Source of the DNA: Lentisphaerae bacterium WC36
GTDB lineage: Bacteria > Verrucomicrobiota > Lentisphaeria > Victivallales > SZUA-371
Direction: 5' to 3'
Length of the DNA: 64,000 nt
NCBI GenBank assembly: GCA_020683205.1
Contig: CP085689.1
Location: 2,970,230 to 3,034,229 of the forward strand
Shown: piece after piece, positions 6,161 through 23,978 of the stretch
Layout: the number at the start of each line of letters is the position of its first letter
Position numbering within the stretch: position 1 is the stretch's first letter
Translations under genes and position numbers: made by a program
Notes under the pieces: model-generated
Told to the model about the DNA's origin: nothing
Databases searched by the model: none
What the model saw: only the letters and a program-made list of their open reading frames with translations

Positions 6161-7765
6161 TTATAAATTAAATTCTTCTTCATTGGGATATTGCAATGTT
6201 CCAGCTAAACGTTGCGCAAGAATTTTCTTAACTTCAGCATCTTTAGCAATTTTTAAAGCCCGTTTGATATCTGCATCTTTCATTTTAAGAATATTAATAA
6301 TGAATTGATCTTTAACTTCTTTATTACTATCTTTTAACCCGGCGCAACACATCGTCAAATGGTAGCAAATCATAACACTCTAAAAATTTACATCGAATAT
6401 ACCAATCAGACTTATTTAAACCATTAATTATAATTTCTTTGGTAACTGGTAAATTTTTATCCTGTTATTAATATTCAAAGATGGTCTATCACCTTCATTT
6501 TTCAAATCGTTTATCTCTTTATAAATTATTTGTAACTGTTCTTTAAATAATTCATACTTCTTTTTAGGAAAATAAACAGCAATAAGAAAATTTGCTTCTT
6601 CATTGGCGATTTGTGCTATATAACGCTTTTCTAAAGATGGGGCTATTCGTTTATCAATGTAACTTTTCATAGCCAATGTTGAAATTACTTCACACAACTC
6701 ATTCCATTCTTCATCTGAAGCTTTTGGGGTTTTCTCAATAAAAATATCGAAAATCAATAGGGCGTCTTCTTTAGTTAATGGACCTAAGTTATAATTGCGA
6801 GGACTAGAACCTACTTTATTATAAATTTTTTCCTTCATCCAGTCAAGTGAACCTTTTTTAGGTGCAGTTAAAACAGTCTCGCTCCACCCATCTTTAAAAC
6901 CATTAAAAATACCCTTATCATCAAAATGAATTTTCGTCGTTGTTAAATAACGTCCATCCATTTTTTCATAAATTAAACAACTTTCTTCGTCTCTTGCAGG
7001 TTGTCCTATAAGTTCAATAATTTGTTTTTTATTCATTCCTTTTTCAAGAAATCCCATTTTTCCAAAGCGTGTTTGAATTGATTTAATCGAGTCCTCGACT
7101 TTAGCTGTTTTTTAAAATTTAATACTCGTTCCAATTTCCAAAAAGACCTCTTGAGAGACTGGTGCATGAGTAGACATTGAAGTCGCAATGCGTAAATCAT
7201 CAGACATCGCCTGAATCAACTTAACATTACCATCGCCCATGAGGTCAAAACAAAGCAGAGTACCACAATTATTAATAATGTAATTCAATTCTATAGCGCC
7301 GCATTCACAACTCCAACCACTATCTAAATAATTCAGATCTCTATCTAAATGCAATGCAAAATAAGTGTGGCCGCCAATCGCTAGGCGATATCCTTTAAAA
7401 AAAGAGTTATTAAAAACGCCCACTTCTCCGCCACTAGTTGAAATTTCATCCCCTTGCTGTTTGATTTCTAATTTAATATCTGGACGGTCAGGATAACTAA
7501 AAGAGATAAATTCATCTTCAAAAGTTTTCCAATTTACAAAACTTTTTTTGGCAGCAACAGCTCGCAATTTTTCATCTTTAAAAGCTTGTAATTTTCGCGG
7601 CATTATTTTTTCCGAATATTTTTGATAACTTTTGTCTATTGGAATAATTAAAATTTTTTCTTTAATTTCTTGAGCTGAAAGCCGTTTCGCTTGTACAAAA
7701 TTAGCACTCATTGAAGTAACACCAATTAAAACCAATAACCCAAATCTTTTAAATCCACCTACCAT
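6161..7765 (-). pseudogene. Broken paralogue of the 7791-9413 gene (nonsense codon plus frameshifts)
   Basis: The intended protein is a signal-peptide-bearing paralogue of the adjacent 540-residue protein. Translation from the ATG at 7765 keeps the same N-terminus and runs to a TAA at 7112-7114. The reading frame then continues without a shift (KTAKVEDSIKS...MGFLEKGM) and stays homologous to the intact copy to about 6450. Near 6440-6450 a shift moves homology into another frame (QDKNLPVTKEIIINGLN, matching QDEPLTKQLIIEGLN). A further shift near 6340 returns it to the frame ending at 6161 (LQYPNEEEFNL). One nonsense codon and at least two frameshifts mean it should not make the full protein. 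Fragments 7112-7765, 6428-7057 and 6161-6373 could be mistaken for separate genes. Confidence 0.85.
7451..7765 (-). repeat. 315-bp near-identical tract, copy in the pseudogene
   Basis: This block aligns without gaps to 9099-9413, offset 1648, with only four differences (about 98.7% identity). Downstream of it the two genes are only distantly similar. The abrupt edge points to gene conversion or a partial recent duplication of the 5' end. Confidence 0.9.
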
Positions 7766-7790
7766 CTTAACACTTCCCTTATTCAAATAT

Positions 7791-9413
7791 CTAATCAACT
7801 GTAAATACTCCATCGATTTCAGGCTCATCCGTAAAATCGGAATCGTCATCCTTGCAATCAATTTCATATTGAAAAGCTTCTTTTAATTTTATATTTGTCT
7901 CTTTATCAATAACCTTTTCAATATCTGATAGTTTCATTTTTCTTATTGCTTCTTCACAGTAAAACTTAGCTAATTCTTCTTTTTCATTAAATCCTTTTCT
8001 TAAGTAAATAACAGCCTCTTCAATTGGTAAAAGATATAAAAGCTCATATAAGGCTCCACGAATATTTTTATTTTTATTGTTCAAACCTTCAATAATTAAT
8101 TGTTTAGTTAATGGCTCATCTTGTTTCATACTTAGAACTATTGCTGCTACTTCATTTCTACCATCTGGATACTTAGCTTTTTGTGTTTTATTTCCTGATT
8201 TATATATTTTTCTTAACTGTGAGGAGAGCAACTGTTCCTTATTTTCAGGGGCGTAATAAGTTATGATGGAAATATCATCTCGTGAAACAATTTTTTGTTG
8301 GCATTTTTCTTCAACCATCTTTAAAATTCTTTGATCTTGAAAACCATTTTTTGCTAAAAAGCAAATTGCCTTATATAAAATCATCTTATTATAAAATTCT
8401 GCTGTGGCGATTTTTTTAACAAAAATCTTAAAAATAAGCTTAGCATCATTTTCTGTTAAAGGTGTGGGTTCATAGTTACGTTCAGCATCTGAGAACTCAG
8501 TAGTTATTTTTTCTTCAATCCATTCAAAAGACCCTTTTTCTGGTTTTGTTAAAACATAGTCATAGCAGTTCTTTTTTAAACCATGAAAAATGCCCTTCTT
8601 ATCAAATACTATTTCTGCAGTTACTAACCTTCGCCCACTAGGATATTGAAAAGTGAATAAATTCCCCTTTGTTACTATTGGTTTCCCAAGAATTTCAATT
8701 ACTTGTTCTTTACTCATATCTTTGTTTAAAAATCCTGCTCTATTATACGTCTTCTTTGCAAATACTACAGCTTCACTTAAAGTAGCAGATTTTTTTAACT
8801 TCATGCTAGAAGTTATTTCTAAAAAAATGTCTTGATGCACTGGTAAATGAGTCCATTCAAAAGTTTCTAAACGCCATCCATTGGAGAAAATCTGTACAGT
8901 CTTAGCATCGCCACTACGTAAAAGAGAAAATCGCAACAACGTTTTTTTATTAACCAAAAAAACATGATGGAAAATTGGGCCGCATAAACAATAATTAGGA
9001 CGGTAATCTTCTGCTCTTTTTAGAGCCATTTTATAATAAATGTTGTCACCAATTTTTAGAAAATAATCACGAGAAAAATTATTATCACTCTCTTTTTTCC
9101 CTTGCTGTTTGATTTCTAATTTAATATCTGGATGGTCAGGATAACTAAAAGAGATAAATTCATCTTCAAAAGTTTTCCAATTTACAAAACTTTTTTTGGC
9201 AGCAACAGCTCGCAATTTTTCATCTTTAAAAGCTTGTAATTTTCGCGGCATTATTTTTCCCGAATATTTTTGATAACTTTTGTCTATTGGAATAATTAAA
9301 ATTTTTTCTTTAATTTCTTGAGCTGAAAGCCGTTTCGCTTGTACAAAATTAGCACTCATTAAAGTAACACCAATTAAAACCAATAACCCAAATCTTTTAA
9401 ATCCATCTACCAT
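7791..9413 (-). CDS. Hypothetical secreted protein, intact member of a tandem paralogue pair
   Basis: The 540-residue protein has a Sec signal peptide (about 1-26, ending FVQA). Next come a domain with aromatic repeats (about 27-215) and a segment with the motif KDMSKEQVIEILGKPIV (about 235-255), which resembles the SmpA/BamE-type 'MTxxqVxxlLGxP' element. A helical C-terminal half follows, with HEAT-like stretches around LIIEGLNNKNKNIRGALYELLYLLP, and an acidic tail. I know no family for the whole. An AAGGAG site lies nine bases before the ATG at 9413. Its stop lies 26 bases beyond the pseudogene start, so the copies were in one unit. I infer a periplasmic or outer-membrane-associated role from the signal peptide only. 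Confidence 0.7.
   Translation of the reverse strand: MVDGFKRFGLLVLIGVTLMSANFVQAKRLSAQEIKEKILIIPIDKSYQKYSGKIMPRKLQAFKDEKLRAVAAKKSFVNWKTFEDEFISFSYPDHPDIKLEIKQQGKKESDNNFSRDYFLKIGDNIYYKMALKRAEDYRPNYCLCGPIFHHVFLVNKKTLLRFSLLRSGDAKTVQIFSNGWRLETFEWTHLPVHQDIFLEITSSMKLKKSATLSEAVVFAKKTYNRAGFLNKDMSKEQVIEILGKPIVTKGNLFTFQYPSGRRLVTAEIVFDKKGIFHGLKKNCYDYVLTKPEKGSFEWIEEKITTEFSDAERNYEPTPLTENDAKLIFKIFVKKIATAEFYNKMILYKAICFLAKNGFQDQRILKMVEEKCQQKIVSRDDISIITYYAPENKEQLLSSQLRKIYKSGNKTQKAKYPDGRNEVAAIVLSMKQDEPLTKQLIIEGLNNKNKNIRGALYELLYLLPIEEAVIYLRKGFNEKEELAKFYCEEAIRKMKLSDIEKVIDKETNIKLKEAFQYEIDCKDDDSDFTDEPEIDGVFTVD
9099..9413 (-). repeat. 315-bp near-identical tract, copy in the intact gene
   Basis: This is the partner of 7451-7765. 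The four mismatches are all transitions and all change an amino acid: Asp/Gly, Leu/Ser, Gly/Glu and His/Arg. Confidence 0.9.
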
Positions 9414-20318: not shown

Positions 20319-20340
20319 TATCTAAAAGGAGTCATTGATT

Positions 20341-21579
20341 ATGAAAAAATTCCAACTATTTTTTTGTTTAGCAGTAATATTTTGTTTTCAAAACCGATTA
20401 TTTGCTGTTAGCGCGGGTGACATTGCCCCTAAAATTGAATCTATTAAGGTTCTAAATTGTCGAGCTATTACCACTAACCAGCGAGTTTTAGATAAAGATA
20501 AAAAAGATAGCAAGGAAATTGTTCAAACGCTAAAAATTAGTGACATCATTGCTAGCGCCAACGAAATTAGTGAAGCGAGTAGTGAAAAAAATAATTCAGA
20601 GCCAGTAGAACATGAATATGTTGCATTAATTTTTTGGGCAACATGGTCTCCAACTTGTCGACAAGTTTTTTCTGTATTAGAAGATTTAAATTCACTTTAT
20701 TCTGATGATGTTTTATTTTTGCTGATTTCACGTGAGGCAATTGATAAAGTTGAACGTTTTGACTCAATAGCCAAACTTAATATTCCTTTTATTATTGATG
20801 ACCAAAGCCGTACAACTTTAGATTATATGGGATACGATCAGAATTATCCGACAGTTTTTTTAATTGAAGATAACAATGAAATTCTTTGGCGAGGCGATTT
20901 AGTTGACTTTGAACGAGTAATCAAAAACCTAAAAGCGGATGATTTTGACGCTGAAAAAGAAACTCTTTTAGCAAATTACCAACACCGCTTGCGCGAAAAT
21001 ATACGCAAGGGAGATTTAAATGGTATTTTGTCGTTGAGTCAAAAAATGTTTGAAATTGACCAAAATAGTAAAGTAGCATGTCGAGCGATTTTATATGCAT
21101 TTAACCTAATTACAGAAAAACAACTAGCTATTGATTTCGTTGCTCGTTTGATAAAAGAATATCCCAAGTCATCAGCTTTGCGTTTATTATTAACTGATAT
21201 TTCAATTCGCCAAAACGTTTCACATGAAAAACTTTTTACTCTGACAAAAAATAATATTGATAAATTTTCTGATAATTATCAATTCCACAGCGACTTGTTT
21301 TGGCTGATATTTAACAATTTTAATTTTGCCAATCGCCCTCTAGACATTTTGGCTTTATGCAATCAAAAAGCATATTTAAATATTAATAATATTACAAATA
21401 AACAACTAAAGGCAAATACCCTAACTTCTCAGGCTAGATTATTGTATTTAACAGGCAAAATTCAAAAAGCATTAGAGCTTCAACAAAAAGCTTCCAAACT
21501 CTATATCACTCCATCCTGGCAACAGCAATCTATTAGTACTGAAAAATATTACCAAAAAGCTCTCAAATTAAAACTATAA
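20341..21579 (+). CDS. Secreted thioredoxin-fold protein with TPR-like C-terminal half
   Basis: The 412-residue protein has a signal peptide (ending about RLFAVSAG) and a thioredoxin-like domain (about 90-200: VALIFWATWSPTCRQVF, then NIPFIIDDQ, NYPTVFLI and ILWRGDL). A helical repeat region follows (about 210-412, with QKMFEIDQNSKVA, ARLLYLTGKIQKALELQQKA). The redox motif is S-P-T-C: the first, attacking Cys of CxxC is Ser. It may therefore trap or isomerise disulfides, or bind without catalysis. The start is the ATG at 20341, nine bases after AAGGAG; an in-frame TTG at 20335 is less likely. It has terminators on both sides, so it is monocistronic. Confidence 0.8.
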   Translation: MKKFQLFFCLAVIFCFQNRLFAVSAGDIAPKIESIKVLNCRAITTNQRVLDKDKKDSKEIVQTLKISDIIASANEISEASSEKNNSEPVEHEYVALIFWATWSPTCRQVFSVLEDLNSLYSDDVLFLLISREAIDKVERFDSIAKLNIPFIIDDQSRTTLDYMGYDQNYPTVFLIEDNNEILWRGDLVDFERVIKNLKADDFDAEKETLLANYQHRLRENIRKGDLNGILSLSQKMFEIDQNSKVACRAILYAFNLITEKQLAIDFVARLIKEYPKSSALRLLLTDISIRQNVSHEKLFTLTKNNIDKFSDNYQFHSDLFWLIFNNFNFANRPLDILALCNQKAYLNINNITNKQLKANTLTSQARLLYLTGKIQKALELQQKASKLYITPSWQQQSISTEKYYQKALKLKL

Positions 21580-21677: not shown

Positions 21678-21769
21678 CTTTCTGAACATTTATAGTCATA
21701 TTTACAAACATTTATTAGCAAAACATTAAACTAACAATTTTTAAATCCCTAAGTAAAGGAGTATTTACT

Positions 21770-22567
21770 ATGATTAGAAAGATTTTTACATTAAAAGCTT
21801 CGGCATTAAAAATCTCTTTTTTCGCACTATTTTTAATGTTATCTGTGGCATTAGTTGCTCAAGCAACTAGCGGTGGCGGCGAATGCAAGATGATGGACAA
21901 TAAAGAAGCTCAATGCTCATCTTCAATGAAAGGCAAATGTACAAAATGCAATATGAAAATGGATGAGTGCAAGTGCAAATGTACTAAATGCGACAAAATG
22001 ATGAAAGATTGCAAGTGCAAATGTACTAAATGTCACAAAATGATGAAAGAATGCAAATGCTGTAGCATGAAAGGCGATAAATGCTGTGGTAAATGTGATA
22101 AAGATATGAAAATGTGCAAATGTAAATGCACTAAATGTCATAAAATGATGAAAGAATGCAAATGCTCTAAAGAAATGATGAAAAAGGGCAAATGTTGTGG
22201 GACTTGCAAGGGCGACAAAGCTAAATGTAAAATGAAAGACATGGTTAAAGTTCCTATGATGATGGGACCAATGATGAAAATGAACAAAGAAAACATCATG
22301 GTTTGCTATAAAGTACCTGGCTATACAGAAGATGAAATCACTATCAAAGTTGAAGATCAAATGCTAATGGTCAAAGGCGAAAAAATGATGGCTGCAGGCG
22401 TCGAAGAAGATGATAAAGATGGCGATGAAGTTGAAGTTGAAAAATATTGTATGTTTAGCTCTACAATCATGTTGCCAGAAAAAGTTGATGCCAAAAAAAT
22501 GACTAAGAAAATGAAAGATGGCAAGCTTATGATTACTCTTCCTAAAATGATGATGAAGAAAAAATAA
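21770..22567 (+). CDS. Secreted Cys/Met-rich repeat protein fused to an alpha-crystallin (Hsp20) domain
   Basis: The 265-residue protein has a long signal peptide (about 1-33, ending VAQATS). About 125 residues follow with roughly 28 cysteines in near-periodic copies of CTKCxKMMKxCKCK. A methionine-rich bridge (VPMMMGPMMKMNK) leads to a C-terminal alpha-crystallin domain (about 177-260). The last shows CYKVPGYTEDEITIKVEDQ, LMVKGEK, FSSTIMLPEKVDAKK and KDGKLMITLPK, all in Hsp20 order. Cys-Lys repeats suggest thiolate metal binding as in metallothionein. The Met clusters suggest soft-metal (copper) affinity. Hsp20 domains are normally cytoplasmic, so a secreted one joined to a metal-thiolate module is unusual. 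SD AAAGGAG precedes the ATG. A ferredoxin gene follows. Metal and function are inferred. Confidence 0.85.
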   Translation: MIRKIFTLKASALKISFFALFLMLSVALVAQATSGGGECKMMDNKEAQCSSSMKGKCTKCNMKMDECKCKCTKCDKMMKDCKCKCTKCHKMMKECKCCSMKGDKCCGKCDKDMKMCKCKCTKCHKMMKECKCSKEMMKKGKCCGTCKGDKAKCKMKDMVKVPMMMGPMMKMNKENIMVCYKVPGYTEDEITIKVEDQMLMVKGEKMMAAGVEEDDKDGDEVEVEKYCMFSSTIMLPEKVDAKKMTKKMKDGKLMITLPKMMMKKK

Positions 22568-22579
22568 TATGTTAAAAAT

Positions 22580-22629
22580 GGTGTTTCTAAAAGACGTTTA
22601 AAAATTACAATTTTGTTTTTAGAAACACC
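22580..22629 (+). other. 13-bp hairpin between crystallin-fusion and ferredoxin genes
   Basis: GGTGTTTCTAAAA (22580-22592) and TTTTAGAAACACC (22617-22629) form a perfect stem just after the crystallin gene. No T-run follows on the plus strand (AAAAACAACGGAG comes next), so it is not a normal plus-strand terminator. It may stabilise or process a joint transcript with the ferredoxin gene. Its core resembles the hairpin after hisC. Confidence 0.55.
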
Positions 22630-22650
22630 AAAAACAACGGAGAATTAATA

Positions 22651-22824
22651 ATGGCTGCTGAAGTAGATCAAAACACTTGTACGGGTTGCGGGTTATGTGT
22701 TGATACATGTCCAGTTAGCGTAATTGTAATGCAAGAAGATAATAAAGCATTAGTTGAAGATGGATGTATTGATTGTGGTGCGTGTGTTGAAGAATGCCCA
22801 GTTGATGCAATTTCATTAAAATAA
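22651..22824 (+). CDS. Small 2[4Fe-4S] ferredoxin
   Basis: This 57-residue protein starts MAAEVDQNTCTGCGLC and contains two classic CxxCxxCxxxCP clusters: CTGCGLCVDTCP and CIDCGACVEECP. Size, symmetry and the VSVIVM/VDAISL segments match clostridial-type bacterial ferredoxins, low-potential electron carriers of anaerobic metabolism. The ATG at 22651 follows ACGGAG with eight bases between. It sits 83 bp after the crystallin fusion on the same strand. A shared transcript is possible, but a functional link is not shown. The gene is short enough to be missed by length cut-offs. Confidence 0.95.
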   Translation: MAAEVDQNTCTGCGLCVDTCPVSVIVMQEDNKALVEDGCIDCGACVEECPVDAISLK

Positions 22825-23287: not shown

Positions 23288-23978
23288 GGTTCAAAATACT
23301 TTAACTTGAAAATTTAACCATTTAAGTTATTGCAATTCAATGAAAAAACAAATATATGATTCGTTCAAGAATTTCTGAAGCAAACTTCAGGGAAATAATT
23401 CGTTACTTTTCACTTGATATTGAGGTTAATAAAATTGTTCAACCGTCCATGCATTAATCGGATTTTGAAAGCTACGAGACAGCGTATTACTGAGTTTTGT
23501 GAAAACGAAAGTCCAATGCTGGCGAAATTGAAATTGATAGAAGCTATTTGGAGCTTGTCGCGTGCGTGGGGTCAGAGGTCAAACACATCGTTTTTTGTGC
23601 TCATCAAACGGCAAAGGCGAGTTTACACTCAGGTCGTTACAAACGGCTCTGCGAGCACACTTTTAGCGATTATTAGAGAAAAAATCAACGAAAATTCAGC
23701 CGTTTACATTGATAGACTCGTCGACGCTGGCGACAAAAAGCATTATCAAGTAAAAGATAGCGAAAATAAATATTCCAAAGGTTACAACCACATCAATGGA
23801 ATTGAAAATTTTGGTTGCTTGGTTAAAACCAGATTAGCAAAATTTAGAAATATTAACCAAAATACCTTTATTTGCACTTGAAATAGTGCGAAGTTAGGTT
23901 TAGTTGTAGAAAACAAAGACTTGTTATTTACTAATGCTAAAAATCATGAGAAATAAACCGCTTAAAGTATCCTGAACT
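23288..23978 (+). mobile_element. IS1595-family (ISXO2-like) insertion sequence, 691 bp, inactivated
   Basis: The terminal inverted repeats are GGTTCAAAATACTTTAA (23288-23304) and, inverted, AGTTCAGGATACTTTAA (from 23978), matching at 14 of 17 bases. ATTTTTTT occurs on both sides (23280-23287 and 23979-23986) as an 8-bp target duplication, the length usual for IS1595 elements. Including IR bases, 14 bases (TGAACTATTTTTTT) are directly repeated. The transposase inside is broken. Confidence 0.8.
23356..23945 (+). pseudogene. IS1595-type transposase, frameshifted
   Basis: Frame one from the ATG at 23356 reads MIRSRISEANFREIIRYFS, the typical N-terminus of these transposases, but stops after VNKIVQPSMH. 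Homology resumes in the frame open from 23414 (NRPCINRILKATRQRI, then RVYTQVVTNGSASTLLAII and the C-terminal HINGIENFGCLVKTRLAKF). The middle part that should carry the first catalytic Asp (EIEIDRSYLEL) lies in a different frame. A last shift precedes ALEIVRS near 23890. At least three frame breaks, and Gly in place of the usual Trp after IENF, mean it is dead. The 155-residue open frame at 23414-23881 should not be annotated as a gene. Confidence 0.8.

Follow-up and report, generated by a model that had tools for sequence, protein, structure and literature searches.

A predicted exported Hsp20-family protein with a cysteine- and methionine-rich repeat arm in Lentisphaerae bacterium WC36

Small heat-shock proteins are commonly regarded as cytosolic. 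In a review of the stress-responsive chaperones of the bacterial periplasm, they are named only as the cytosolic IbpA and IbpB (PMC8144458). The locus analyzed here raises the question of what a heat-shock domain might do when it appears to be sent out of the cytoplasm together with a repeat that is crowded with thiols. A stretch of 64,000 nucleotides (the window) was analyzed, in which an intact ORF on the forward strand agrees in its ATG start and length with an earlier note on this DNA. That note had read a signal peptide, a Cys repeat, a Met-rich hinge and an Hsp20 domain in one protein of 265 residues, and every one of these parts was found, as follows:

21755..21761, + strand: Shine-Dalgarno-like AAAGGAG, 8 nt 5′ of the ATG (direct reading)
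21770..22567, + strand: CDS of the predicted exported Cys/Met-repeat Hsp20 protein, 265 aa (ORF with ATG start)
21770..21868, + strand: predicted signal peptide, residues 1–33 (basic start, hydrophobic core, cleavage-like site between AQA and T, no lipobox Cys)
21884..22228, + strand: Cys/Met/Lys-rich arm, residues 39–153 (115 residues), with 28 Cys arranged in 8 CxC, 3 CC and 7 CxxC
22232..22282, + strand: Met-rich hinge, MKDMVKVPMMMGPMMKM, residues 155–171 (sequence reading)
22274..22558, + strand: Hsp20 / alpha-crystallin domain, residues 169–263 (Pfam, structure model, fold search, alignment)

Our preferred reading of the product is a holdase of the envelope whose client-binding arm has given way to a metallothionein-like repeat that buffers soft metals; we judge the chances for and against it to be about even.

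The host genome, assembled as one 3.66-Mb contig, contains a single copy of the gene, and a genome-wide scan revealed three Hsp20s in all, with the other two forming a tandem pair that lacks export signals. An artefact or wrong frame was rejected, since the opposite-strand ORF at 21923–22360, which begins with TTG, only reflects the Lys and Met codons as His and Phe; a horizontal or mobile origin was likewise rejected, with no match in plasmids or viral contigs and a GC content of 34% for the gene vs 33% for the window. The neighbors of the gene are hisD, hisC, a TlpA-like protein and a ferredoxin (57 residues, 22651–22824, 3′ of the gene), and no metal-handling gene adjoins it among these; a heavy-metal P-type ATPase, with a score at the family cut-off, is encoded elsewhere in the genome. 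The protein encoded just upstream (20335–21579) is an exported TlpA/ResA-like protein with a thioredoxin fold, whose CxxC site reads WSPTCRQ, the first Cys having been lost. A conserved neighborhood was also considered and rejected, as the TlpA-like homologues found in the three family members have unrelated neighbors and no adjacent Hsp20. Between the gene and the ferredoxin gene, one further element was observed:

22579..22630, + strand: inverted repeat (strand fold −17.6 kcal/mol, z −2.86)

This repeat has a long loop and folds better than shuffled sequences, and it is possibly a terminator or RNA element. Elsewhere in the window, an IS1595-type transposase domain (PF12762, 30 bits), possibly a remnant, was detected in the ORF 23414–23881, approximately 850 bp downstream. 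The adjacent minus-strand ORFs 7112–7867 and 7791–9413 (within 7112–9413) have near-identical N-terminal halves (KRFGLLVLIGVT.MSANFVQAKRLSAQEIKEK); here, a gene for an exported protein has recently been duplicated in tandem.

The C-terminal half can be assigned to the Hsp20 / alpha-crystallin family by profile and by modeled fold. The Pfam model HSP20 (PF00011) scored 56.1 bits against a cut-off of 20.8 (59.7 bits in the genome-wide scan), and PDB sequence matches of the domain, with E-values down to 1e-7, included fission yeast Hsp16 and, among the best, plant chloroplast Hsp21. An AlphaFold2 model of the domain, for which the input was the window sequence together with viral-contig relatives, gave seven strands with a pLDDT of 81.5 and a pTM of 0.68, and the best 50 Foldseek matches of this model in the PDB were all small heat-shock proteins or crystallins. 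The earlier note had staked this assignment on profile and structure comparison, and both the Pfam and the fold matches bear it out. Its claim of a complete sandwich holds for the core, which keeps the key residues PG, GxL and LP as well as the predicted fold, but not for the usual C-terminal IxI tail, which is absent, the domain ending in LPKMMMKKK right after the last strand. An IxI/V tail serves oligomer assembly in Hsp20s and is usual, though not needed for membership of the family, which is defined by the Pfam domain. Many of the core positions of the domain are occupied by Met.

The N-terminus has a best 17-residue mean hydropathy of 2.37, which lies within the range of other exported Hsp20s, and from its sequence we infer both the cleavage of the signal peptide and the location of the protein. 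The mature protein (232 residues) would contain 57 Lys, 37 Met, 30 Cys, two His and neither Arg nor Trp, with a computed pI of about 9.05 and a net charge of about +22. That export of an Hsp20 would in itself be unprecedented, as the earlier note held, was contradicted by many Hsp20s with a signal peptide or an anchor in the same order, two of these relatives being in the same family; a signal peptide, lipoprotein signal or membrane anchor precedes the Hsp20 domain at the loci L007, L011, L015, L185, L186, L187, L188 and L177. Among 93 Hsp20 frames of the order, which were gathered by similarity and frame length and assigned to export classes by inspection and a crude hydropathy score, an IxI-type tail was present in all 80 non-exported frames and absent from six of the 13 exported ones, the WC36 protein included (Fisher p 2e-6, indicative only).

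A tail-less, membrane-anchored group of Hsp20s was obtained from the genomes G003 and G001 of the window's family and from G008, G015, G021 and G033, with loci in the order at L196 1053–1790, L197 7028–8032, L198 10541–11383, L199 1909–2886, L205 1501–2262 and L206 1504–2259. A Met-rich patch precedes the domain in this group, such as MQQMARQMMLEMDRNMPM in L205, and the four members placed in the tree form a well-supported clade (100/98); no description of these proteins was present in the papers found. Hsp20s that are exported and carry Met-rich arms are thus a well-established kind of protein in the order. The traits of this envelope clade (export or anchoring, a Met-rich arm and the missing IxI tail) are all present in the WC36 protein, which shares with its members the exported N-terminus, the Met-rich patch before the domain and an end after the last strand without IxI; the relatives differ in carrying a membrane anchor and a Pro/Gln-rich linker with almost no Cys, whereas the WC36 protein has a predicted cleavable signal peptide. 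In the free tree, its domain lies on a very long branch among ordinary Hsp20s, and a tree constraining this long branch into the tail-less clade did equally well (AU p 0.55), with a gain of 0.63 log units. The profile of the tail-less clade gave 58.8 bits for the ordinary Hsp20 of the host vs 37.7 bits for the WC36 protein.

A domain so divergent, on a long and Met-rich branch, might have lost its chaperone function. The protein would then be an exported metal sequestrator, with the Hsp20 domain serving only as a scaffold for oligomerisation or stability, a reading that draws on the very long branch and abnormal composition of the domain, the loss of the IxI tail, the Met at many core positions and the arm as the most distinctive part of the protein. 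We consider it unlikely, with the sandwich residues PG, GxL and LP and the predicted fold being intact, and with the tail-less Hsp20s of relatives forming a supported clade, so that loss of the tail alone does not imply decay.

The arm holds 28 of the Cys residues, with two more in the Hsp20 domain, and has no aromatic residue. Its periodicity of approximately 14 residues (CTKCxKMMKxCKCK) corresponds to five DNA units of 42 nt:

21938..21979, + strand: repeat unit 1, CTKCNMKMDECKCK
21980..22021, + strand: repeat unit 2, CTKCDKMMKDCKCK
22022..22063, + strand: repeat unit 3, CTKCHKMMKECKCC
22085..22126, + strand: repeat unit 4 (degenerate), CGKCDKDMKMCKCK
22127..22168, + strand: repeat unit 5, CTKCHKMMKECKCS, identical to unit 3 in 39 of 42 nt

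Pairwise identities among the units range from 27 to 39 of 42 bases, and the pattern CTKCxKMMKxCKC fits three of the five, while the other two are degenerate. This DNA repeat supports the internal expansion that had been suspected from the protein. Units 3 and 5 differ by two synonymous codon changes in their common 13-residue core and by one amino-acid change at the last position, and as these differences are mostly synonymous, the protein sequence is suggested to have been kept. These differences fit a duplication of recent date after which the Cys/Lys/Met pattern was retained, though one gene cannot prove selection. The same duplication could be taken to mean a low-complexity expansion with no role in metal binding, or a structural envelope protein crosslinked by disulfides, whose bias came from replication slippage in an AT-rich gene, and the absence of the repeat from relatives outside the host genome would agree with this. 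Such an origin is nevertheless very unlikely in our judgment: the composition is biased in a very specific way, with regularly spaced Cys, almost no His and no Arg, units 3 and 5 are separated by one amino acid and two codon changes that are synonymous, and neither DsbB nor VKOR, which would form disulfides, was found in the host genome.

The arm satisfies the metallothionein trait of high Cys in CxC, CC and CxxC arrays with few aromatics. The description "metallothionein-like" in the earlier note is accordingly apt for composition, but it does not extend to any family model or solved structure, none of which was significantly matched. No Pfam family matched the arm alone better than E 0.17, no Pfam metallothionein matched it even at E 10, no NCBIfam metallothionein matched the whole protein, and a PDB sequence search with the arm alone gave no significant match; the whole protein, modeled by AlphaFold without an alignment, reached a pLDDT of 45.8. 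Searches for such a Cys arm in the rest of the host genome, in 137 genomes from the order and in 198 from the class revealed none, and 388 genomes of the phylum gave only weak matches (E 0.003–0.1), four of which were examined and looked like chance. In 84,980 species genomes, a close-relative scan revealed no such arm, and the degenerate pattern CKCxKC-x6-CKC was located at 35 loci, none with an Hsp20 in frame, both scans being blind to other Cys spacing or to codons outside the pattern. When the frames of these 35 loci were read through, they were rejected as relatives of the repeat, being unrelated Cys-rich or chance sequences. In searches of open-access papers, no account was found of an exported Hsp20 that carries a metallothionein-like repeat.

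Hence, the view of the earlier note that no described family joins an exported Hsp20 to a thiolate repeat is upheld for the Cys arm and not for the export. The Cys/Met/Lys arm appears so far to be unique to this protein within the collections searched; it is known from one genome only, and it is possibly a single-species oddity. Secreted Cys-rich segments fused to domains other than Hsp20 do exist in the order: at L006 2419–2967 (+), a protein with a signal peptide combines a rhodanese domain (PF00581, 51 bits) with the Cys-rich stretch CKCDSCECDSCGCKGC. Its gene, from another family of the order, has an ordinary Hsp20 gene approximately 300 bp away.

The dense CxC, CC and CxxC thiols, set among Lys and Met with almost no His, point, by analogy with metallothioneins, to an arm that would bind soft metals through thiolates. 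By extrapolation, 28 Cys could hold approximately 7–10 Zn(II), or more Cu(I), if metallothionein stoichiometry held. The window encodes a hydroxylamine-reductase-like (HCP) protein, which suggests that the host is an anaerobe, and neither DsbB nor VKOR was found in the genome; taken together, these observations mean that exported thiols could stay reduced. Under our preferred reading, Sec would export the protein, which would be released in soluble form, at 26 kDa, into the periplasm, where the alpha-crystallin half would dimerise and hold unfolding envelope proteins. Because the IxI tail is absent, dimers or small assemblies would be expected, vs the large cages of ordinary Hsp20s. The arm would hold Cu(I), Zn(II) or ions of the Cd/Ag/Hg type in thiolate clusters, with Met of the repeat and hinge as additional Cu(I) ligands, and metal buffering would be coupled with the protection of envelope proteins. 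Of these properties, metal binding and chaperone activity, the oligomeric state and the link between the two halves are our inferences. In favor of this reading also stand the heavy-metal P-type ATPase of the genome and, as a precedent, HspA of Helicobacter pylori. Against it, we count that no metal gene adjoins the gene, that no arm-bearing orthologue was found, that the domain is so divergent and Met-rich and that the arm matched no metallothionein model. A stronger form, in which metal loading of the Cys/Met arm controls the Hsp20 holdase and ties envelope proteostasis to soft-metal status, is doubtful.

The same thiols might instead respond to redox state, with oxidative stress oxidising the Cys clusters, perhaps zinc-loaded, so that the arm opens and client holding is switched on, much as zinc and thiols act in Hsp33 and Met oxidation acts in plant Hsp21. 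The very many CxC and CxxC motifs, the Met-rich hinge adjoining the heat-shock domain and the exported thioredoxin-fold protein encoded just upstream would suit a switch of this kind, as would the behavior of Hsp21, by E-value the best PDB sequence match, which changes conformation upon reversible Met oxidation (PMC5427286). Set against these are a number of Cys (28) far above the need, the lack of a CxxC in that upstream protein (WSPTCRQ), and the failure to find DsbB or VKOR for disulfide resetting in the host genome, and we give little credence to a redox switch.

The order carries exported Hsp20s in several families, part of them without the oligomer-building tail, and what is new on this little-described background is an Hsp20 with an unprecedented Cys-repeat arm. 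If this arm binds metal, the envelope holdase proposed here would offer a natural case in which to test how the arm of a small heat-shock protein can be rewired for metal sensing or buffering outside the cytoplasm.

Among known systems, Hsp33 is a thiol- and zinc-containing chaperone, cytosolic and with four Cys; it compares with the WC36 protein only in how it works, as its fold is different, and no Pfam Hsp33 match was found in the protein. By sequence, plant chloroplast Hsp21 (PDB 7bzw, 5nms) appears to be the closest among solved structures, sharing the small heat-shock domain. It is organelle-targeted and has a Met-rich N-terminal arm tied to redox regulation, with its dodecamer held by C-terminal tails (PMC5427286); unlike the WC36 protein, it possesses such tails, lacks a Cys repeat and does not belong to the exported proteins of bacteria. 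The bacterial metallothioneins SmtA and MymT and the exported Cu(I) store Csp1 (PMC7558416) likewise place many thiols in one small protein, but they are not fused to a chaperone and the arm has no Pfam match to any of them, and Csp1 further differs in its rigid four-helix bundle and Tat signal. The closest functional precedent is HspA of Helicobacter pylori, a GroES whose C-terminal extension, rich in His and Cys, binds nickel and serves in its storage and detoxification (PMC3856676). It differs in its GroES fold and co-chaperonin role and in its short, His-rich nickel extension at the opposite end, while, like the WC36 protein as proposed, it is a heat-shock chaperone bearing a metal-binding extension.
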